49,012 bases of DNA from Deltaproteobacteria bacterium (GCA_016874735.1 VGTI01000031.1:1-49012), one strand, 5' to 3'; counted from the first letter of the stretch, positions 4,257 to 14,227 are shown. Made by a program: numbers and translations. Notes: generated by a model not told the origin, from the letters alone.

Positions 4257-5279
4257 ATGGATCAATTCGCTCAGCTCGCTCCTGACGAGCGCCGTGCCTA
4301 CTTTGAAGCAGCCGCAGCTAATCTCGGGAACATGAGCGCCGAGATCATCCAAAAAGATTTTTGGGTTTGCTGGACACTTAAAAATCTCTTCGGTCTCGAC
4401 GACATCGGCGCCCATCTCACCTTCAAGGGGGGCACATCTCTGTCCAAGGTCTACGGAATCATCAAACGCTTCTCTGAGGACATCGACGTAGCAATCGAAC
4501 GAGACTACCTCGGGTTCGGGGATCTAAAAGGCCCGGAACACGCAGCCGGAACAAAGGAGCGAGAGCGGCGACTACAGAGCCTCAAGGTCAGTTGTCAGGA
4601 TACTGTCAAGGGTCAGATACTCACAGCATTTTCTGCACGCTGTGAATCACTCCTTAAGCCTAACAGCTGGAGCCTCGCCATTGACGCAAACGACTCCGAT
4701 CGCCAGACTCTGCTATTCACCTTCCCCAACGCGATCGACACCGGCCTCCAAGCCTACGTGCGGCCTGTAGTTAAGATCGAACTCGGTGCCCGGTCGGACC
4801 ACTGGCCTGCGCAACAAGCAAGTATCAAGCCTTACCTACACGATGCCTTTCCAGCAGCGTTGAGCGAGCCGTCGTCTACAATCCGTGTCTTGGCAGCAGA
4901 AAGAACTTTTTGGGAAAAGGCGACGATCCTGCACATGCTCCATCATTGGCCGGCCACCAAGCTCCTCCCGATCCGAATGTCACGCCACTATTGCGACTTT
5001 TACATGCTGCTTGGATCTATCGTTAAAGACCTCGCGCTGAAAGACGACGCCCTTCTGACGCGCGTTGCCGAGCACAAATCCGTATTCTTTCGTGCCGCAT
5101 CTGCAAAATATGAAGAGGCGAAACGTGGAACCCTCCGCCTCGCGCCACCGGACCACCGATGTACCGCTCTCAGAACAGACTATGCGGCAATGTCGTCGAT
5201 GTTCTTTGATACGATTCCAGACTTAGAGGTGATCATCGCGACCATCTCGGCGTTTGAACAGAGTTTCAACGGGGACTGA
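4257..5279 (+). CDS. AbiEii/AbiGii-family nucleotidyltransferase toxin
   Basis: This encodes a 340-residue nucleotidyltransferase-fold toxin. The signature is FKGGTSLSK (about 57-64) followed by FSEDIDVAI (72-80), which provides the GG/S motif and the two metal-binding aspartates (75 and 77). A conserved ERTFWEKATILH stretch lies near the middle. AbiEii toxins transfer nucleotides to RNA (tRNA in characterised members) and were found as phage abortive-infection proteins. The upstream gene is its AbiEi partner. All catalytic features look intact. It is the first of two AbiE pairs in the array. Confidence 0.88.
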   Translation: MDQFAQLAPDERRAYFEAAAANLGNMSAEIIQKDFWVCWTLKNLFGLDDIGAHLTFKGGTSLSKVYGIIKRFSEDIDVAIERDYLGFGDLKGPEHAAGTKERERRLQSLKVSCQDTVKGQILTAFSARCESLLKPNSWSLAIDANDSDRQTLLFTFPNAIDTGLQAYVRPVVKIELGARSDHWPAQQASIKPYLHDAFPAALSEPSSTIRVLAAERTFWEKATILHMLHHWPATKLLPIRMSRHYCDFYMLLGSIVKDLALKDDALLTRVAEHKSVFFRAASAKYEEAKRGTLRLAPPDHRCTALRTDYAAMSSMFFDTIPDLEVIIATISAFEQSFNGD

Positions 5280-5366
5280 ACACGGAATGGATCGAAGGGT
5301 TGTTACGGCGAATACCTGAAAGGCATAGGCTGCCGGCCTGAGGCACTCATACCAATTGGTTGGGCC

Positions 5367-5397
5367 GCCGGTTCCGGCCGCGAAGGCCAGAACTGGC
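5367..5397. terminator. Strong hairpin between convergent genes
   Basis: GCCGGTTCCGGCC (5367-5379) pairs with GGCCAGAACTGGC (5385-5397) over 13 positions with one wobble and one mismatch; the loop is 5 bases. It lies between the plus-strand toxin gene and the minus-strand gene ending at 5434, where a two-way terminator is expected. No clear T-run flanks it. Confidence 0.5.
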
Positions 5398-5433: not shown

Positions 5434-5790
5434 CTATTTCGTGAGACTCCCCGCTAGCAGCATGCCAAGTAATTCGTCACGACTTAGACCACGCTGCTCT
5501 TTGGAGACTTTGCTAAACAACAATTCCAACCGATCCTTATTCGTGAGCGTACCCTCACAAATTGTCGCAATATGATGCTCCGTAAGCAGCTCCAGAGCGT
5601 AGCTCAGCAGATCATCGGCCTTAACACGCCGGCCACGCCGATGCTTATTGGCTTGCTGGAGCAACTGTTCCAGTTTGAGTTTGGTGGTGGTGCGAATTCT
5701 GATTGGCGTTGAGGCTACATTTGCCTCCGGCTTGCGTCTCTTTTTTGAAACGCCATTGCCCACATTGCCAACTTCAGATGTAACCGTCAT
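5434..5790 (-). CDS. Small basic protein, possible ribbon-helix-helix DNA binder
   Basis: This encodes a 118-residue basic protein of unrecognised family. After a lysine/arginine-rich start, residues about 34-80 read TPIRIRTTTKLKLEQLLQQA and then a helical segment DDLLSYALELL, which resembles the strand-helix-helix layout of ribbon-helix-helix regulators and relaxosome accessory proteins. The C-terminus is a second helical region. An ATG at 5880 would add 30 residues, but 5790 is chosen because the extra segment lacks protein-like composition. Ten-base tandem repeats (5891-5910) lie upstream and could be its operator. Its place at the right end of the recombinase-carrying element would fit a regulator or accessory recombination protein; that is inference. 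Confidence 0.55.
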   Translation of the reverse strand: MTVTSEVGNVGNGVSKKRRKPEANVASTPIRIRTTTKLKLEQLLQQANKHRRGRRVKADDLLSYALELLTEHHIATICEGTLTNKDRLELLFSKVSKEQRGLSRDELLGMLLAGSLTK

Positions 5791-5890
5791 TTCCGTTCCG
5801 CCCAAAATGATCGCGATTGTTGAGCGCGGTAATCGCTCGACCGCGGTCGAAGGCTGGGAACAGACGTTTCTAGAGAGCAACCAAATAGAG

Positions 5891-5967: not shown

Positions 5968-5978
5968 TGAAAGATAAC

Positions 5979-6061
5979 TACCTGTAAATACTAACCCATA
6001 CTTCTCAGTACCAAACCTGCTGTTACCTCCTTACACATGGGCGGCATGGGCGGGATGATGT
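5979..6061 (+). repeat. GroEL-tail repeat R1 (junction E0/E1)
   Basis: This is an 83-base repeat. The left part starts TACCTGTAAATACTAACC and continues to GTACCAAA at 6015. A variable middle follows. The right part (6039-6061) includes GGCGGCATGGGCGGGATG and ends ATGATGT. Read in frame, the right part encodes HMGGMGGMM and then TGA, matching the GroEL C-terminal tail. It shares both ends with R2 and R3 at almost the same total length. It is interpreted as a hybrid attachment site where the right end of one element meets the groEL tail carried by the next. Confidence 0.75.
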
Positions 6062-6068
6062 GATAGCC

Positions 6069-6082
6069 CCCTGATTTCAGGG
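6069..6082 (+). terminator. Hairpin just after GroEL tail in R1
   Basis: CCCTGA and TCAGGG form a perfect short stem eight bases after the TGA of the encoded GroEL tail. A hairpin of different sequence but the same position follows R2 (9273-9286), which suggests selection for the structure. Confidence 0.5.
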
Positions 6083-6120
6083 AGTTATTCATCATTTTCT
6101 GCGTAAATTTATCCCAGTGG

Positions 6121-6154
6121 ACGGGAGCCTATCAGAAGGTAGGCTCCCGTTTTT
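6121..6154 (+). terminator. Rho-independent terminator of element E1 left end
   Basis: An 11-base perfect stem (ACGGGAGCCTA with TAGGCTCCCGT), an 8-base loop and a T-run at 6150-6154 form a classic intrinsic terminator. It follows the GroEL-tail repeat R1 and would end transcripts reading through a reconstituted groEL gene. Confidence 0.85.
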
Positions 6155-6317
6155 ATTTCACAATTTGGAAACTTCGATCGCTCAGTATGTGCGGCAGGAA
6201 GTAATCTGTACGGTTTATTTTGGATCTTAAAACAGACTAAATACATCTTTTTTTTGGATTGAAATGAACCAAGGCTTGGTTCATAATAATCGACAAAACA
6301 GATGCAATAGGTCTGAA

Positions 6318-7088
6318 ATGGCATCAAAGATAAACCAAATCCTTGCCAAGTGGCTTCCTGGGGACGTGCATACCCTCAAGTGGTTTAAAGAAAATGGCGT
6401 TAGCCAGCGGGTTGCCTTCGGCTATTCAGAGAGTCGCTCCATTCAAAAGATCGGTGTCGGCGCATTTAGCCTGCCGGATGCTGAACTGTCTTGGCTAGGT
6501 GCTATAAGAGCAATGCAGCAGGAACTCCAGCTCCCCATCCATGTGGGAGCCCGAACCGCATTGGAGCTTCATGGTGCAGCCCATTACATTGAGCCAGACA
6601 CAAACCCCATGATTACCGTTATCGGCTCCAGAAAATTTAACGTCCCGAGTTGGGTTCGGATGAATGACTGGCATGCAAAACTCTGTTTCAAACAATCTTG
6701 TTTGATCAATGGCGAACAATCTCTCACAGCGTTTAGCGCTAATAGACTTGAAATCAAGATCTCGACCCGCGAGCAGGCTATCTTAGAGCTGCTCGACGAC
6801 CTTGACCTTACTCACGGCTTTGAAACAGCAGAGAATTATCTCTTACCGCTGATGACTCTGAGACCTACACTAGTCCAGGATCTACTAACTCGTTGCAATT
6901 CCATCAGAGTGAAACGCGTATTTTTGTATCTGGCAGACAAGATGAATCTACCTTTCTTCTCCAAGCTCAGCCTTGACGCGATCGAACTGGGGTCCGGCAA
7001 ACGGGTCGTCGTCAAAGGTGGGAAGTTTGACACAAAGTATAAGATCACCGTACCGAGGGAAGATACGGAGGATAGGTTTGATTTCTGA
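6318..7088 (+). CDS. Type IV antitoxin, AbiEi family
   Basis: This encodes a 256-residue antitoxin of the AbiEi family. The opening (SKINQILAKWLPGDV, then LKWFKENGVS) and the later GVGAFSLPDAELSWLGAIRA and GARTALELHGAAHY match the N-terminal winged-helix and following domain of AbiEi proteins closely. An upstream in-frame ATG at 6264 exists, but family alignment and AGG at 6309-6311 ahead of 6318 favour the shorter form. The gene overlaps the downstream toxin gene by 11 bases, so the pair is translationally coupled. AbiEi proteins bind inverted repeats in their own promoter; none was clearly identified here. This pair is unrelated in close sequence to the AbiE pair at 3648-5279. Confidence 0.88.
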   Translation: MASKINQILAKWLPGDVHTLKWFKENGVSQRVAFGYSESRSIQKIGVGAFSLPDAELSWLGAIRAMQQELQLPIHVGARTALELHGAAHYIEPDTNPMITVIGSRKFNVPSWVRMNDWHAKLCFKQSCLINGEQSLTAFSANRLEIKISTREQAILELLDDLDLTHGFETAENYLLPLMTLRPTLVQDLLTRCNSIRVKRVFLYLADKMNLPFFSKLSLDAIELGSGKRVVVKGGKFDTKYKITVPREDTEDRFDF

Positions 7089-7989
7089 GATCTATGAAAA
7101 TCAAGTTGATCTCCTCTTGGAAGTCTTACCTATTGTGGCGAGACACCCTGAGTTTGCCATCAAGGGTGGGACGGCCCTTAATCTATTCTGTCTGGATATG
7201 CCCCGTTTATCTGTTGATATCGATCTTTGCTATTTGCCGATCAAAGACCGCTCTGAATCATACTCTGACATTCATCGCATCCTGGACCAGATGAAAGACC
7301 AGATTGAACGAACGTTTGGGTTTAAAGCGCAACCGAATCATCCACTCGACGGTAAGCGGGAAGCACGGATAGTGGTCGCGACCGGAAGCGCTAACATTAA
7401 GATTGAGCCCAATTATGTCCTTCGTGGCAGTTTATTTGCTCCGATACAGATGGAGATTTCTGAGATTGTGCAAGCCCGATTTGAAAAAAATGCCACCGCA
7501 CTCGTTCTCGACCAAAGTGATCTCTATGGTGGCAAATTCTGTGCTGCACTAGATAGACAGCACCCACGCGATCTATTTGACGTCCATCACTACTTCTTGA
7601 GGAACTCAATAAACACTCAGGTGAAAGACGCCTTTATCTTCTATCTTCTGTCGCATAATCGACCCACACATGAGCTCCTGGATGCTCGGGAGTTAAATAT
7701 CGCGGAAATTTACGAAAGTGATTTTCTCGGAATGACCGATCGAGAGATTTCTGTTTCAGATCTCACACAGGCCCGAACGAAATTAAAATTTGAACTATTG
7801 TCGGCGCTCGATGACCGTGATCGCCGCTTCCTAACTACCTTTACAAAAAACGACCCTGACTGGAGCTGCTACAATCAGCCTAAAATTAAGGACTATCCCT
7901 CAATTCGCTGGAAACTCCATAACCTCGGTAAGATCAGCGAAAGAAAGCGAGTTGAACAAACAAAACTGCTCGCCGACATTTTGAAATAA
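7078..7989 (+). CDS. AbiEii-family nucleotidyltransferase toxin (TTG start)
   Basis: This encodes a 303-residue nucleotidyltransferase-fold toxin. The motif IKGGTALNLF (about 28-37) is followed by LSVDIDLCY with metal-binding Asp47 and Asp49. Later segments DLYGGKFCAALDRQHPRD and LFDVHHY are typical of the AbiEii/AbiGii family. TTG at 7078 is chosen because GGAGG at 7067-7071 lies at ideal spacing and the first residues fit the family; the in-frame ATG at 6973 would sit deep inside the antitoxin gene. Family members act by adding nucleotides to RNA. It is paired with the AbiEi gene upstream and appears intact. Confidence 0.88.
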   Translation: MISEIYENQVDLLLEVLPIVARHPEFAIKGGTALNLFCLDMPRLSVDIDLCYLPIKDRSESYSDIHRILDQMKDQIERTFGFKAQPNHPLDGKREARIVVATGSANIKIEPNYVLRGSLFAPIQMEISEIVQARFEKNATALVLDQSDLYGGKFCAALDRQHPRDLFDVHHYFLRNSINTQVKDAFIFYLLSHNRPTHELLDARELNIAEIYESDFLGMTDREISVSDLTQARTKLKFELLSALDDRDRRFLTTFTKNDPDWSCYNQPKIKDYPSIRWKLHNLGKISERKRVEQTKLLADILK

Positions 7990-8013
7990 GTTAAATTATA
8001 TCCATCTGAAATC

Positions 8014-8451
8014 GTGGAAAAAATGTTTAAGTTTACAGAACTGCGCTCCACAAAACTAATAAAAGCGAAACTGCTCAGCCCACGTAAGCTATATAGATGG
8101 GTAGCGAGGATATTTAGCTGCTATCTCACCTACGAGTGGTTTCTGTTCACCACACAGTCTGATGTTGCTCATATCAGATTTACGTTTAGGATCATGACCG
8201 AGCAAATTCCAAAGGTCTTTGTACTTTTTGTCATAGGGCTATGGCTTTCGTCTACAGCATGGGGCTGGAGACACAAAAAAACGGTGTACCTACTCTTATT
8301 ACCGTCACTCCTTATGTCTCCACAAATCGCGGGTTTTCCGTTCACCATCATGGGATGGCTATCATTTGCGGTAGCCCTCTGGGCTTATATTACAGTTTAC
8401 AATGCTGAAAGGACAAACCATGTATTGGTGGCCACCCAATCTAATGGCTGA
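8014..8451 (+). CDS. Small inner-membrane protein, unknown
   Basis: This encodes a 145-residue protein starting with GTG at 8014 (ATG at 8023 is an alternative). After a basic N-terminal segment it has about three or four hydrophobic helices, including VFVLFVIGLWLSSTAWGW, VYLLLLPSLLMS and MGWLSFAVALWAYITVY. No family was recognised. It starts 24 bases after the AbiEii gene and overlaps the next, broken gene by 32 bases, so it may be co-transcribed with either. A membrane protein beside a DUF6973-like gene might be a partner or protector, but nothing in the sequence proves this. Confidence 0.6.
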   Translation: MEKMFKFTELRSTKLIKAKLLSPRKLYRWVARIFSCYLTYEWFLFTTQSDVAHIRFTFRIMTEQIPKVFVLFVIGLWLSSTAWGWRHKKTVYLLLLPSLLMSPQIAGFPFTIMGWLSFAVALWAYITVYNAERTNHVLVATQSNG

Positions 8452-9055
8452 GGCAACAAAAGAGGCATACATATATTTCGATACGAAGATTCGCCCCCTA
8501 CCTAAAGACGAAAATGGTCAAATAGATGCTACAGTAGCAGGGTTCGTTGATAATGACGTTGACGCGTTTCGCCATGCATACGTGAGTGGAGTTTTCACCC
8601 AAGAATATAACGAACAAACGGCAAATATTTTAGGCTGGCTCAATGAAGGGACATCGATACTTTCACCGTTCGGAAGTACCAATATGGACCTATGAAATAA
8701 CAGCATCGGCCGTAAACTGGGCTCAAAGGCAAAAACAAGGGAACAGCTCGCAGACTCAGTAAGGCAAGCCCTAAAATCCGGGGAATTGATCATAAGGTTA
8801 GACGACTCAAGAAAGTTTACTGAAAGTGTGCCCAAAAAACCCTCTGGCGATCATTCGGTGATTGTCCTTAAAAAGGACAACAAGGGAGTTAATGAGCATT
8901 TTTACGATTTTGATTCATCAAAGGTCCTATCAAGAGCCGAATTTATCGCAGAAATTCAGGCTGACCACTATCCAGGCTACGGGATTAGAGGCATAAGAGG
9001 CGTTGATTATCCTTTTTCAAAGAGGGATGGCGATCCACTCAACAACCTGGGCTAA
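8420..9055 (+). pseudogene. DUF6973-like protein broken by in-frame TGA
   Basis: The reading frame runs from ATG 8420 (AAAGGA at 8408-8413) to TAA at 9055 but has a TGA at 8693-8695. Translation on both sides fits one protein of about 211 residues: DNDVDAFRHAYVSGVF, then STNMDL-stop-NNSIGRKLG, then a C-terminal half with HSVIVLKKDNKGVNEHFYDF. In DUF6973-type proteins the region reads MDLxNN with an aromatic residue at x, so TGG to TGA is the likely change. The family name is from memory and should be confirmed. No alternative start lies close behind the stop. The gene probably encodes only a truncated 91-residue product. Confidence 0.7.
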
Positions 9056-9104
9056 ACTTAATCGGCATACGTGGCAGCGGGGTCAGCACCCCCATCCGCG
9101 CCCC

Positions 9105-9122
9105 AATTGCGCCGCAATTTTT
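9105..9122 (+). terminator. Short hairpin with T-run after E1 cargo
   Basis: AATTGC and GCAATT flank a 3-base loop, followed by further T residues to 9122. It lies 50 bases after the broken DUF6973-like gene and would end the E1 operon. The stem is short, so strength is uncertain. Confidence 0.5.
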
Positions 9123-9185
9123 GTGCTACCAGATACCACTCCCTACCAAACGCAAAAAACTTTTCGGCAAAATTTTTGTCTCAAC

Positions 9186-9267
9186 TACCCGTAAATACTA
9201 GCCCATACTTCTCTGTACCAAAAATCATTCACCTGCGGTCCACCGGGCGGCATGGGCGGGATGATGT
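9186..9267 (+). repeat. GroEL-tail repeat R2 (junction E1/E2)
   Basis: This is an 82-base copy. The left part starts TACCCGTAAATACTAGCC and runs to GTACCAAA at 9222. The right part (9245-9267) includes GGCGGCATGGGCGGGATG and, in frame, encodes GPPGGMGGMM followed by TAA. The left part differs from R1 at only three positions over 37 bases. GCCCAT in the left part is complementary to ATGGGC in the right part. It is interpreted as an attachment-site hybrid at the groEL 3' end. Confidence 0.75.
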
Positions 9268-9272
9268 AAGAT

Positions 9273-9286
9273 CCTGTAGTTACAGG
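9273..9286 (+). terminator. Hairpin just after GroEL tail in R2
   Basis: CCTGTA and TACAGG form a perfect stem four bases after the TAA. It takes the place of the CCCTGA/TCAGGG hairpin after R1, with changes on both arms that keep pairing. Confidence 0.5.
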
Positions 9287-9311
9287 GCTTTATAGCTCAC
9301 CTAAGCTAAAC

Positions 9312-9350
9312 AATTGGGCTCCTACCGCAAGGTAGGGGCCCAATTTGTTT
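9312..9350 (+). terminator. Rho-independent terminator of element E2 left end
   Basis: A 15-base stem (9312-9326 with 9331-9345, one G-U pair), a GCAA tetraloop and a T-rich tail make a strong intrinsic terminator. It matches in position, and partly in sequence (CTCCTACC with GGTAGG), the terminator after R1. Confidence 0.88.
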
Positions 9351-9415: not shown

Positions 9416-9468
9416 TTATGGTATTGAGTTTTTACTCAAAAAGACCGATAAACGACATAGGAGGGGGC

Positions 9469-10029
9469 ATGAAGTTACTAAGCAAGATTCGCAACTCAAA
9501 AAATCTAGGTGAGCGCGATGCCGCGCGATCTGCCGGTATTGCGCGTGCAACTTTGCGATCACTTGAAGCTGAACCGCGAAGTAGCAGGCCTGATATCTTG
9601 GATCAGGTGCTTCACCTATACTCACGTCAGGCAATCTTAGCCTTAGTCCCGATCGAACCAGCTGCCAGCGAACAATCGATCGTAGCTATCTCAATTGCCG
9701 TCGTTAATCAGGGCTTTGAATCCTGGAAGATTTATTTGATGGACTTCGTCGATGAGTTCAGGCGTTCACTCGATGCGAGACTTGTCCTACTGCCTCCAGT
9801 CAAAGCATTAGACCCCAGACTCAGAGCGCTCATGGCCTCAACTACCGCTGCACTTTGCGCCGAATCAGGGATTGATGTCCCCGAGTGGGCAAGACCAAGC
9901 TATTTCTTGGATGAACCGTGGTTTTTGTCCGGCATGGAGTCGCTAAAGGCCATGGCTATAATTGAATCGCCTGTTGAATTCCGACGCAACAATATCTTCG
10001 TTCATGACAACTTTCTCCAGAGGGCCTAA
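9469..10029 (+). CDS. HTH protein, probable antitoxin/regulator of NTase pair
   Basis: This encodes a 186-residue protein. Residues about 5-45 (RDAARSAGIARATLRSLEAE) look like a helix-turn-helix. The rest (including WKIYLMDFVDEFRRSLDARL and PEWARPSYFLDEPWFLSGME) is a conserved-looking domain that I cannot name. ATG 9469 has AGGAGG just upstream and is preferred over 9418. The stop codon overlaps the start of the next gene (TAATG), so the two form an operon. An HTH protein ahead of a small nucleotidyltransferase is a frequent toxin-antitoxin layout, with the HTH member as antitoxin and autorepressor; that role is inferred from context. Confidence 0.7.
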   Translation: MKLLSKIRNSKNLGERDAARSAGIARATLRSLEAEPRSSRPDILDQVLHLYSRQAILALVPIEPAASEQSIVAISIAVVNQGFESWKIYLMDFVDEFRRSLDARLVLLPPVKALDPRLRALMASTTAALCAESGIDVPEWARPSYFLDEPWFLSGMESLKAMAIIESPVEFRRNNIFVHDNFLQRA

Positions 10030-10538
10030 TGCTCACAGCCGAGCAAATAAAATCATCTTTCAACGCGCTCAATGAAGAATTGCGCCGTCAGGGCCACAAG
10101 GGCGAAATCGGCATCGTTGGGGGCTCCGTCATGTGCCTGATTTATAATGCTAGGGCTGCCACTCGTGATGTAGATGCTATTTTTGAGCCAAGTCACATCA
10201 TTAGACAAGCCGCAGCCAAAATTGCTGGTGACTTGGGCTTGCCTACGGATTGGCTCAATGACGGCGCGAAGGCCTACCTCGTTAAGGACTTTGCGCGGCA
10301 GGACTACCTACAATTGTCTAATTTACTAGTTTGGGCACCGGAACCAAAGTACATGCTCGCCATGAAATGTATCAGCGCGAGGTGGGATTCCTCCGATAGT
10401 GATGACGTAATTTTTTTGACCAACTACCTGGGGATCAGGACATCCCAAGTCATATTTGACATCATTCAATCTTACTACCCAAACTCAATGATCCCACCGA
10501 AAACAAAGTTTTTTATCGAAGAGTTACTGCAGGAGTGA
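10029..10538 (+). CDS. DUF6036-type nucleotidyltransferase, probable toxin
   Basis: This encodes a 169-residue protein with a minimal nucleotidyltransferase fold. The signature is IVGGSVMCL (about 29-37) followed by ATRDVDAIF with the paired aspartates (about 47 and 49); SNLLVWAPEPKYMLAMK continues the family pattern. Proteins of this type (DUF6036) are predicted toxins in two-gene modules with a DNA-binding partner, which here overlaps by one base upstream. It is intact despite the transposon remnant that begins at its 3' end. Substrate unknown. Confidence 0.75.
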   Translation: MLTAEQIKSSFNALNEELRRQGHKGEIGIVGGSVMCLIYNARAATRDVDAIFEPSHIIRQAAAKIAGDLGLPTDWLNDGAKAYLVKDFARQDYLQLSNLLVWAPEPKYMLAMKCISARWDSSDSDDVIFLTNYLGIRTSQVIFDIIQSYYPNSMIPPKTKFFIEELLQE

Positions 10539-11859: not shown

Positions 11860-12918
11860 GTGAAGTCTTTCGAGGACGATTTTCTACAGAGACACCCCAT
11901 CAACCAGACGCTCATTAAGACCATTCGGCTGCTCGGAGAGTTTCGTGGCAAAGAGGACCTTTTCCGTGTCCAATCACCGCAGACCCTCGAAACCCTGAGA
12001 CAAAATGCAGTGATCCAAAGTACCGAGTCTTCCAACCGAATTGAGGGGGTCGTTCTTCAAGACTATCGGCAGCTGAAAGCGCTGGTTGAAAGCAAGATTC
12101 AACCGATCACACGGCCGCAGCAGGAGATTGCTGGCTACAGGGACGTGCTGCAAACGATTCACGATTCACACGCCGATATTCCCCATACAGCTCGAATCGT
12201 GCTGCAACTCCACCGCGATCTGTTCAAATACACAGCTGCCCCAGGCGGAACCTGGAAAAACACCGACAACGCCATCACTGAAACTGCTGCCGACGGCACA
12301 AGGACGGTGCGTTTTCAGCCTGTGTCAGCCTGGCAGACGCCAAGCGCCATGGAAGCGCTGCACGAGCAATTTCGTCGCGCTTTGGAACCACCGAACTCGG
12401 TCGAGCCCCTTATCGCGCTCGGCGCCTATATCCTCGACTTTCTCTGCATTCATCCCTTCCTGGACGGAAATGGGAGGATTGCGCGCCTCTTGACATTGCT
12501 GATGCTCTATCAAGCCGGTTTCAATGTCGGACGATACAGCAGCCTCGAGAAAGTCGTCGAAGATACCAAGGATGGATATTACGACGCATTATACAAGTCG
12601 TCACAGGGCTGGCACGACGGGAAGCACGACCTGACGCCGTGGCTCGAATATTTTCTTGGCGTCATGCTGCTCACAGCTTACCGAGAATTTGAGAACCGCG
12701 TCGGATCGGTTGAAACCGCCAAGGGTGCTAAGGCAGCAATCGTCATAGCCGCCATTGAGAGACTTCCAGTGAGGTTTACAATCGGTGATGTTGCGAAGAA
12801 ATGCCCCACCGTCGGCATCGACCACGTTAGGAAGATCCTGCGCGCCGAACGCGATGCAGGCAGACTCGTAGCAGAAGGACGCGGACCTAACGCGGGATGG
12901 GTTAAAAAGAGCGAGTAG
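11860..12918 (+). CDS. Fic family protein (predicted AMP-transferase)
   Basis: This encodes a 352-residue Fic/DOC protein. The catalytic motif HPFLDGNGRIAR is complete at 198-209. An N-terminal inhibitory helix with the (S/T)xxxE(G/N) pattern is present as SSNRIEG at 57-63, so this is a class II self-inhibited enzyme. The C-terminal 70 residues (RFTIGDVAKKC to the end) look like a winged helix. Fic proteins transfer AMP or related groups from nucleotides to protein targets. The start is GTG 11860, with GAGG at 11850-11853. Class II Fic proteins with a C-terminal DNA-binding domain need no separate antitoxin, which fits its single-gene layout. Confidence 0.92.
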   Translation: MKSFEDDFLQRHPINQTLIKTIRLLGEFRGKEDLFRVQSPQTLETLRQNAVIQSTESSNRIEGVVLQDYRQLKALVESKIQPITRPQQEIAGYRDVLQTIHDSHADIPHTARIVLQLHRDLFKYTAAPGGTWKNTDNAITETAADGTRTVRFQPVSAWQTPSAMEALHEQFRRALEPPNSVEPLIALGAYILDFLCIHPFLDGNGRIARLLTLLMLYQAGFNVGRYSSLEKVVEDTKDGYYDALYKSSQGWHDGKHDLTPWLEYFLGVMLLTAYREFENRVGSVETAKGAKAAIVIAAIERLPVRFTIGDVAKKCPTVGIDHVRKILRAERDAGRLVAEGRGPNAGWVKKSE

Positions 12919-13085
12919 AACATTTGCAGGTCTATCAACTAGCCAAAACATAAATGGGCGCCTCGCCACTGCAGAGCATTAATCAAGCGGACCACTTCGA
13001 CACGACTGCGACACGATTTTTATGCCTCTCGCTACCAATCAGCACCAAGAAATGGGAGGACTTACCCGTAAAGTTAAGTCCTAAG

Positions 13086-13167
13086 TACCCTTAAATACGA
13101 ACCAATACTAATTGGCACCAACTCTGGCGTGGACCATTTGCAACTGGCGGCATGGGCGGGATGATGT
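13086..13167 (+). repeat. GroEL-tail repeat R3 (junction E2/E3)
   Basis: This 82-base copy has exactly the length of R2. The left part (TACCCTTAAATACGAACC) is more diverged than in R1 and R2. The right part keeps GGCGGCATGGGCGGGATG unchanged and encodes TGGMGGMM followed by TAG. Unlike R1 and R2 it is not followed by a hairpin and terminator; the promoter of the next gene pair follows at once. Confidence 0.72.
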
Positions 13168-13189
13168 AGAGCAGCAACACCACTCTAAC

Positions 13190-13269: not shown

Positions 13270-13515
13270 ATGAGTGAAACAACGAAGTTAAGAAAAGTCG
13301 GCAACTCAGCGGGCGTCAGTCTACCCAAACAGGTGATCGAAGCGCTTCAGCTGCATCTGGGCGAAGAGTTGCAGCTTACCATTCGAGGGGACTGCCTGAT
13401 CATTCGCAAAGTTCAAACTCTGAAAGATCTACTGGCATCCGTACCAGAGAATGAGACGAGCGAAGAATGGAAGACAGGACATGCGACGGGCCAAGAGGTG
13501 ATCGACGATGAGTAA
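13270..13515 (+). CDS. AbrB/MazE-family antitoxin
   Basis: This encodes an 81-residue antitoxin. The N-terminal half (KLRKVGNSAGVSLPKQVIEA) is the swapped-hairpin AbrB/MazE DNA-binding domain; the acidic C-terminal tail (ENETSEEWKTGHATGQEVID) would wrap around the toxin. Such antitoxins block the MazF active site and repress the operon. The gene overlaps the toxin gene by 8 bases. It is intact and is the only cargo pair of the smallest element in the array. Confidence 0.9.
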   Translation: MSETTKLRKVGNSAGVSLPKQVIEALQLHLGEELQLTIRGDCLIIRKVQTLKDLLASVPENETSEEWKTGHATGQEVIDDE

Positions 13516-13855
13516 AAAGAAACCTGTTTACCATCCAGAACGAGGTGATATCTGCTATCTGGATATGGATCCCATCCTAGGTGTTGAGCAAGATAAAAGA
13601 CGACCAGTTCTTGTGTTGTCTGACGGTGAATTCAATCGCAAACTTGGACTTGCCTTTTTCTGTCCCATTACATCGACGCCACCCCGACACGGATTTCATA
13701 TTAAGCTCACCAATCACATGATGACTAAAGGTGTTGTCATTATCGAGCAGCTTAAAAGTCTGGACTATGTTGTGCGCCATGCATCTTTTGTTGAGCGAGC
13801 TTCTGATGAGGTTACTGTCGCAGCAAGCGCAATTCTCCTACAAATAATAAAATAA
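13508..13855 (+). CDS. MazF/PemK-family endoribonuclease toxin
   Basis: This encodes a 115-residue toxin of the MazF/PemK/ChpB family, which cuts mRNA at short sequence motifs. Hallmarks are RGDICYLDMDPILGVEQ, the basic KRRPVLVLS strand with the conserved Arg, the FCPITSTP strand with the conserved Ser/Thr, and GVVIIEQLKSLD in the later sheet. Length and motif order match the family. The antitoxin gene overlaps it upstream. Confidence 0.92.
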   Translation: MSKKKPVYHPERGDICYLDMDPILGVEQDKRRPVLVLSDGEFNRKLGLAFFCPITSTPPRHGFHIKLTNHMMTKGVVIIEQLKSLDYVVRHASFVERASDEVTVAASAILLQIIK

Positions 13856-14227
13856 ACTCATATGTGTTGACATGAGACCTACAGGTTTCACCGGGAACGC
13901 CCAAAAACAAATGCAGATTTTAGAGGATTCGCTCGAAGGACTTCGAGTTAGTAGGCTAAAAAGGCGGAATAGGCGGGATGATTTGGGTTAGAAAATTTGC
14001 CCACTTATGCAAGGCGAGCGATCCATGATGGGTTACATTGTAAGATAAATAAAGATTCTTTTAGCTTTAGAATCTGGGTGTTCGTACCGATACATAGAAA
14101 TATGTATCTCGCAGTTCGTATATAGATTCGGGGTCTGGGAAACAGCCAAGTGGAAGGCCGCGATCCAGATCAACTGGTTAGTCGGTACGGGGTCTTCAAC
14201 TAGAGAATCACCTAGAGGATCTTAGTC
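13856..14227. other. Intergenic region with decayed R4 and hairpins
   Basis: No gene is seen in this 370-base stretch. It contains a perfect hairpin CTCGAAG-GA-CTTCGAG (13932-13947), the decayed R4 tail (13963-13983) and the inverted repeat AGATTCT/AGAATCT (14053-14075). It is the border between accessory DNA on the left and what looks like ordinary chromosome on the right. Confidence 0.5.
13963..13983 (+). repeat. Decayed GroEL-tail repeat R4
   Basis: GGCGGAATAGGCGGGATGAT matches the right half of R1-R3 except for three changes. In frame it would encode GGIGGMI and the stop codon is lost. The left half of the repeat is not recognisable. It is the most diverged copy and the farthest from the recombinase, as expected for the oldest junction. 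Confidence 0.5.

Follow-up and report, generated by a model that had tools for sequence, protein, structure and literature searches.

The stretch of DNA examined here (the window) is the entire 49,012 bp contig C31 (GCA_016874735.1; VGTI01000031.1) of a Deltaproteobacteria genome, G000, that is assembled in 166 contigs. It carries three short copies of the 3′ end (tail) of the chaperone gene groEL, named R1, R2 and R3, set among toxin-antitoxin and related genes (Table 1). The window was compared with the genomes of relatives, namely G001 (another species in the genus of G000), G002, G004 and G005, and with G007 from a different family; the assemblies are fragmented, and one relative is a metagenome-assembled genome from Lac Pavin sediment. 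As set out below, R1, R2 and R3 are very probably the attachment (att) sites of arrayed integrative elements, of the type of integrative and conjugative elements (ICEs) and cis-mobilisable elements (CIMEs), which carry toxin-antitoxin and abortive infection (Abi) genes and insert at the groEL 3′ end.

Table 1. Positions of features in the window, counted from its first base, and of two protein families that recur at other loci (L numbers)
Feature	Position	Strand	Remarks
Tyrosine recombinase IntA, XerA-like, 280 aa	918..1757	+	Pfam PF00589; nearest solved relative XerA 5hxy
Small recurrent protein	5434-5880 (window); L105 1443-1778; L106 753-1115; L102 1510-1860	- (window)	
Right-end motif before R1	5976..6015	+	Four TAC triplets at -61, -51, -41, -31; repeat family D2
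R1 att core, groEL-tail copy	6040..6062	+	GGMGGMM codons; exact 18-base match; core boundaries from empty/occupied comparison
R1 stop codon TGA	6061-6063	+	Directly ends the groEL-tail copy
R1 first hairpin CCCTG-ATTT-CAGGG	6069-6082	+	5 perfect pairs, 4-base loop
R1 intrinsic terminator	6119-6152	+	15-pair stem, then T-run
AbiEi antitoxin, after R1	6264-7088	+	Pfam and PADLOC
AbiEii toxin, after R1	about 7081-7989	+	Pfam and PADLOC
Right-end motif before R2	9183..9222	+	TAC at -60, -50, -40, -30; repeat search, conservation in genus
R2 att core, groEL-tail copy	9246..9268	+	Repeat search, 18-base match, empty/occupied comparison
R2 stop codon TAA	9267-9269	+	Ends the R2 tail copy
R2 first hairpin CCTGT-AGTT-ACAGG	9273-9286	+	5 perfect pairs, 4-base loop; identical to hairpin after intact groEL
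R2 intrinsic terminator	9312-9345	+	15-pair stem, then T-rich sequence
Cargo after R2	9418..10538	+	Protein without family assignment and weak DUF6036 nucleotidyltransferase match
Fic-domain protein	11860..12918	+	Domain searches
Diverged right-end motif before R3	13083..13122	+	Repeat search
R3 att core, TAG type	13146..13168	+	No strong hairpin or terminator after; fold z -1.7
Small upstream open reading frame and MazF/PemK-like toxin	13270..13855	+	
R4 degenerate tail copy, 3 mismatches	13963..13983	+	No right-end motif, no such hairpins; could be chance
Very large protein family	L097 58-5895; L032 about 4575-5395; L106 8377-8862; L099 3637-3906	- (L097)	

A single intact groEL gene was found in G000, on contig C38, and an exact 18-base tail sequence occurs nine times in this genome, one occurrence being the end of the intact gene itself. 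Similarity between the copies begins sharply at the tail. No groEL coding sequence was found 5′ of any tail copy; what lies there instead, upstream of most copies, is a conserved non-coding stretch of about 100-150 bp, here called the element right end, that includes four TAC triplets at an exact 10 bp spacing and ending about 30 bp 5′ of the tail. The right end stands at a nearly fixed distance from the tail in most of the 15 sites examined in the genus and was also seen in other families of the order, several of which carry tail copies as well. An earlier note on this DNA had described R1 and R2 as groEL tails. Neither is at present joined to groEL: the intact gene is on C38, and the two copies are preceded by an element end and sit inside the array; R1 and R2 are the att cores of integrative elements, not groEL fragments.

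Each of the two is followed by a short hairpin and then by a strong intrinsic terminator, as the earlier note had described. The 3′ region of R1 folded with an energy of -39.6 kcal/mol (z -5.3) and that of R2 with -40.7 kcal/mol (z -6.6), and in neither case was any of 200 shuffles as good. When both strands of the window were scanned at 13,968 start points for a hairpin close to the start point and a terminator within 125 nt, the pair was found at 0.036% of them, and the R1 and R2 sites both passed. The terminators were located within a few bases of where they had been placed before (6121-6154 and 9312-9350), and the first hairpins, previously read as 6-pair stems (CCCTGA/TCAGGG and CCTGTA/TACAGG), are present at the slightly smaller size given in Table 1. 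A search of the window against Rfam gave no match.

Over 101 bp, the R2 block from the core to the terminator end (9246-9346) shares 99% identity with the 3′ end of the intact gene on C38, and the groEL 3′ untranslated region (UTR) of G001 is 73% similar and has the same hairpin. Hairpins and terminators of this kind are also present downstream of intact groEL in relatives, contrary to what the earlier note had named as a refutation, the lack of such hairpins after groEL in related genomes. When R1, R2 and the 3′ ends of groEL from G000 and G001 were aligned, all 60 of 60 cells of the terminator stem were paired, with changes on both sides in 4 of the 15 pairs, and sliding one arm of the stem as a control abolished the pairing pattern. 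For the first hairpin, where the alignment was made by structure, R1 differs from the others on both sides in 3 of 5 pairs. The earlier observation that changes on both arms preserve the pairing is thus right.

An empty and an occupied form of the groEL locus were found in G002, where the only tail copy is the one inside groEL, and G005. The G002 locus (L101) matched G005 contig C49 with 96.6% identity over positions 1-2539, as far as the core extends, and G005 contig C19 with 91.8% identity over positions 2512-2936, from the start of the core onward; the overlap of ~28 bp between the two matches is the duplicated core. On C49, groEL reads through the core to its own stop codon, so that the end of the product is supplied unchanged, and past the tail the gene enters a hairpin and terminator that differ from those of G002. 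On C19, an element right end is followed by the 3′UTR and flank of the original site, which start exactly at the displaced tail, in which the stop codon TAA has decayed to CAC. As C49 and C19 are separate contigs, the insertion was reconstructed from its two edges.

This pattern is the signature of site-specific integration at a core of about 23-28 bp, in which the gene end is restored, the 3′UTR is replaced and the old one is displaced. Codon differences between core copies did not fix where exactly within the core the crossover takes place. As the tail is itself the recombination core, the end of the GroEL protein stays the same and it is the 3′UTR that changes. The earlier suggestion that each element supplies groEL with a new tail plus a transcript end is therefore supported in principle, a new 3′UTR with a predicted terminator being seen in G005, with the correction that the protein end does not change.

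Not every tail copy is followed by such structures. A structured 3′UTR (z <= -2) was found after 14 of 16 sites of the TAA/TGA/CAC type and after 1 of 13 sites of the TAG/TAC/TGG type (Fisher p 2e-5, to be taken as descriptive since the sites were divided by stop codon only once the sequences had been viewed). R1 and R2 have a hairpin and terminator; R3 and the other TAG-type copies have none. Sites of the TAG/TAC/TGG type, R3 included, may have arisen by insertion at other places or belong to elements that lack a UTR. At one of them, in G000 (C1:268163-268183; L063 4163-4183), a tail copy and element right end abut a short-chain dehydrogenase/reductase (SDR) gene that lacks its start, and this site is possibly an insertion outside groEL; the proteins of intact SDR homologues are only 58-60% alike.

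IntB, a tyrosine integrase of 466 residues, was first met in G004 (contig C369), and matches to it were found in 9 of the 58 genomes of a phylum sample, all 9 within the order. IntB adjoins a groEL-tail core at all 10 loci examined (11 match rows, one gene being split in two), at a distance of 114-499 bp and always pointing toward the core, which in six of the 9 genomes is that of intact groEL itself. From this position, IntB is predicted to catalyse recombination at the cores. No close relative of IntB was found in phage, plasmid and viral collections, its matches to satellite-phage integrases were of only 22-24% identity, and the score against the integron-integrase model was 27 bits (cut-off 265).

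In the proposed mechanism, the final ~23 bp of groEL would act as the recombination core. The left end of an element would carry a groEL-like 3′UTR with hairpin and intrinsic terminator, and its right end, directly ahead of a further core copy, would carry the conserved sequence in which four TAC triplets stand 10 bp apart. Integration would keep the GroEL protein end, hand groEL the 3′UTR and terminator of the element, and push the previous tail and 3′UTR to the far side of the insert. Repeated insertions could then give rise to an array whose tails, whether displaced or brought by an element, each have a hairpin and terminator of their own. The stems and T-runs predict that groEL transcripts end at these terminators, which would probably keep the groE operon, a strongly expressed one, insulated from the toxin genes of the insert by ending groE transcription before them. 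Because IntB faces groEL, the terminator may also shield groEL from opposing transcription of IntB.

A more far-reaching reading is that the groEL 3′UTR is a portable module, such that integration swaps the hairpin and terminator and re-tunes groE transcript stability or 3′ processing, and with it the main chaperone of the host, by gain and loss of islands whose lineage has spread through the order carrying defence genes. We regard this as unlikely.

Several observations weigh against the interpretation of the window as an array of integrative elements at groEL. The array is not joined to groEL within the assembly of G000, and a synteny search in G002 and G005 placed the DNA to the right of the array on contigs without groEL and found no core nearby, so the array may lie at a second locus. 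G000 has no IntB match at E <= 1e-40, thus the array may now be immobile or dependent on another recombinase. R2 and the intact groEL share one UTR, which a simple crossover at the core alone does not predict; it could come from two elements of the same type, from a native copy that was displaced or from gene conversion. The TAG-type junctions are likewise left unexplained by the simple model.

The tails could instead be relics of groEL duplications, or decayed pseudogenes reduced to the final codons and the terminator, as might be thought from the GGMGGMM sequence they encode and from the near identity of the R2 UTR to that of the real gene. However, only one groEL was found in the genome, the sharp start of similarity at the core and the non-coding right end in place of groEL codons are not what such relics would leave, and the empty and occupied loci of G002 and G005 contradict this origin by placing an insertion at the core; it is extremely improbable. 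Alternatively, the hairpins may be palindromes in the DNA that form part of the left att site and are bound by a recombinase or excisionase, with termination secondary or incidental. This would fit their comparable positions next to the core and a TTA, weakly conserved across sites, at +26 to +28. However, stems that change in sequence while keeping their pairing are expected for RNA and not where a protein binds a specific sequence, the second hairpin has the form of a terminator with a T-run, and such structures also follow intact groEL genes without an element, as in G002, making this explanation quite improbable.

The array might also be an integron-like cassette array driven by the XerA-like recombinase IntA, and IntA was indeed the first idea for the groEL-tail recombinase. 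It is a full-length tyrosine recombinase encoded near the array, and the array has several small cassettes whose cargo is of the toxin-antitoxin kind and which have an end site in common. However, IntA scored only 82 bits against the integron-integrase model, far below the cut-off of 265, and among about 8 IntA loci two were on core-bearing contigs, besides a fragment in G005, whereas IntB stands beside a core at every locus. As IntA so rarely shares a contig with a core, it was not assigned to these sites, IntB being the core-linked integrase. The target is moreover the end of groEL, as with ordinary integrative elements. An integron-like array is thus very unlikely.

The Escherichia coli K-12 prophage e14 offers a parallel, as the icd end and the displaced icdC are 87% identical over 216 bp and both have intrinsic terminators with different stems. 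There, as at the groEL end, the element brings the 3′ end of its target gene and a terminator of its own, and the displaced icdC keeps its terminator; however, the target is icd, the coding homology is ~165 bp and the insertion is single. Staphylococcal phage-inducible chromosomal islands (PICIs), SeCISE48 among them, have an att site that overlaps the final 18 bp of groEL and leaves the gene unaltered (PMC8125051). The target and the overlap of the att site with the last codons are shared with the elements described here, but the bacterial group is different and the integrase appears to be so too, IntB matching satellite-phage integrases at only 22-24%, and one groEL-end element, in G004, includes conjugation genes. 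Mycobacteriophage Bxb1 likewise uses a groEL gene, groEL1, as its attachment gene (PMC2884959), but through a serine integrase, integration by which is cited as interrupting chromosomal genes (PMC2884959), whereas the gene end is restored in the groEL-end elements.

Arrays of att-flanked islands without integrase, built at one gene by repeated site-specific integration, are known from ICE/CIME accretion in ICESt1-related elements (PMC5704250). R1, R2 and R3 similarly delimit tandem att-flanked segments in a genome without IntB, but here the target is groEL, one att side comes with a full 3′UTR and terminator, and there are several small cassettes. What is seen at the groEL end is therefore a well-documented further instance of a known trick and not a new mechanism; it brings these features together in another group of bacteria, with an integrase lineage of its own. 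No paper describing such islands from this group came up in a literature search.

On this interpretation, islands with defence genes have landed repeatedly at the groEL 3′ end in a group that has been little studied, apart from the case known in staphylococci, and the islands come with a dedicated integrase family that is open to testing. As in e14/icd, the elements bring a terminator besides the missing codons, which makes sense where toxin genes are inserted behind one of the most transcribed operons of the cell. The site signature of right end, core and UTR should make it easier to find such islands in other genomes.

The cargo is mostly of the AbiE, DUF6036, Fic, MazF and TumE kinds, and islands in relatives encode AbiE, TumE and AAA_14/DUF4143 proteins. 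The gene pair after R2 is likely a toxin-antitoxin pair. A promoter-like site (6259-6287) after the R1 terminator, near the AbiEi start, is only suggestive, such sites being no commoner than in shuffles. The IntB element of G004 (contig C369) encodes a TraD/TrwB-type coupling protein, TraC, TraE, TrbI and a secretion ATPase, plus AbiEii; no relaxase family matched the ten proteins scanned, which represent part of the open reading frames on this incomplete contig. Conjugation genes were not found near the array in the window.

Among the genomes searched, IntA is almost confined to this genus, with copies for example in G000 (C134; L064 3065-3907), G004 (C369) and G005 (C104), and the IntA query against named genomes gave only two relevant metagenome-assembled genomes. 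In G005, a 67-residue IntA fragment that is 100% identical to the window protein lies directly after groEL, whereas the full-length IntA of this genome is only 75% identical to that of the window, which suggests a recent transfer of IntA. A small protein of 110-148 residues recurs beside element ends or IntB and is a candidate excisionase or mobilisation factor; the first two tested had no Pfam match.

Further tail copies were seen outside the window. The copies on contigs C84, C116 and C36 (L033 1-97, L035 5667-5763 and L065 2137-2238) are directly followed by the same ~75-nt sequence, with 85-100% identity over ~97 nt including the core, and two of the contigs end at it; this sequence is probably a further repeat element whose start lies at the core. 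The groEL tail of G001 (L099 2253-2276) has several silent changes in the core, and no exact tail copies, IntA or IntB were found in that genome, where the site possibly no longer accepts these elements. In G007, 8 exact tail copies, or 10 when one mismatch is allowed, were found, most with the same right-end motif; those on contigs C13, C35, C67, C149, C206, C210, C270 and C300 (L177-L184) indicate another large set of sites.

A DUF6973-like gene at 8402-9055 in the window is split by a stop codon or frameshift and is whole in G005 (L103 5028-5663), where it precedes the equivalent element end. In several species, members of a very large protein family (Table 1), of 1945 aa in G005, are repeatedly encoded close to groEL-end islands.

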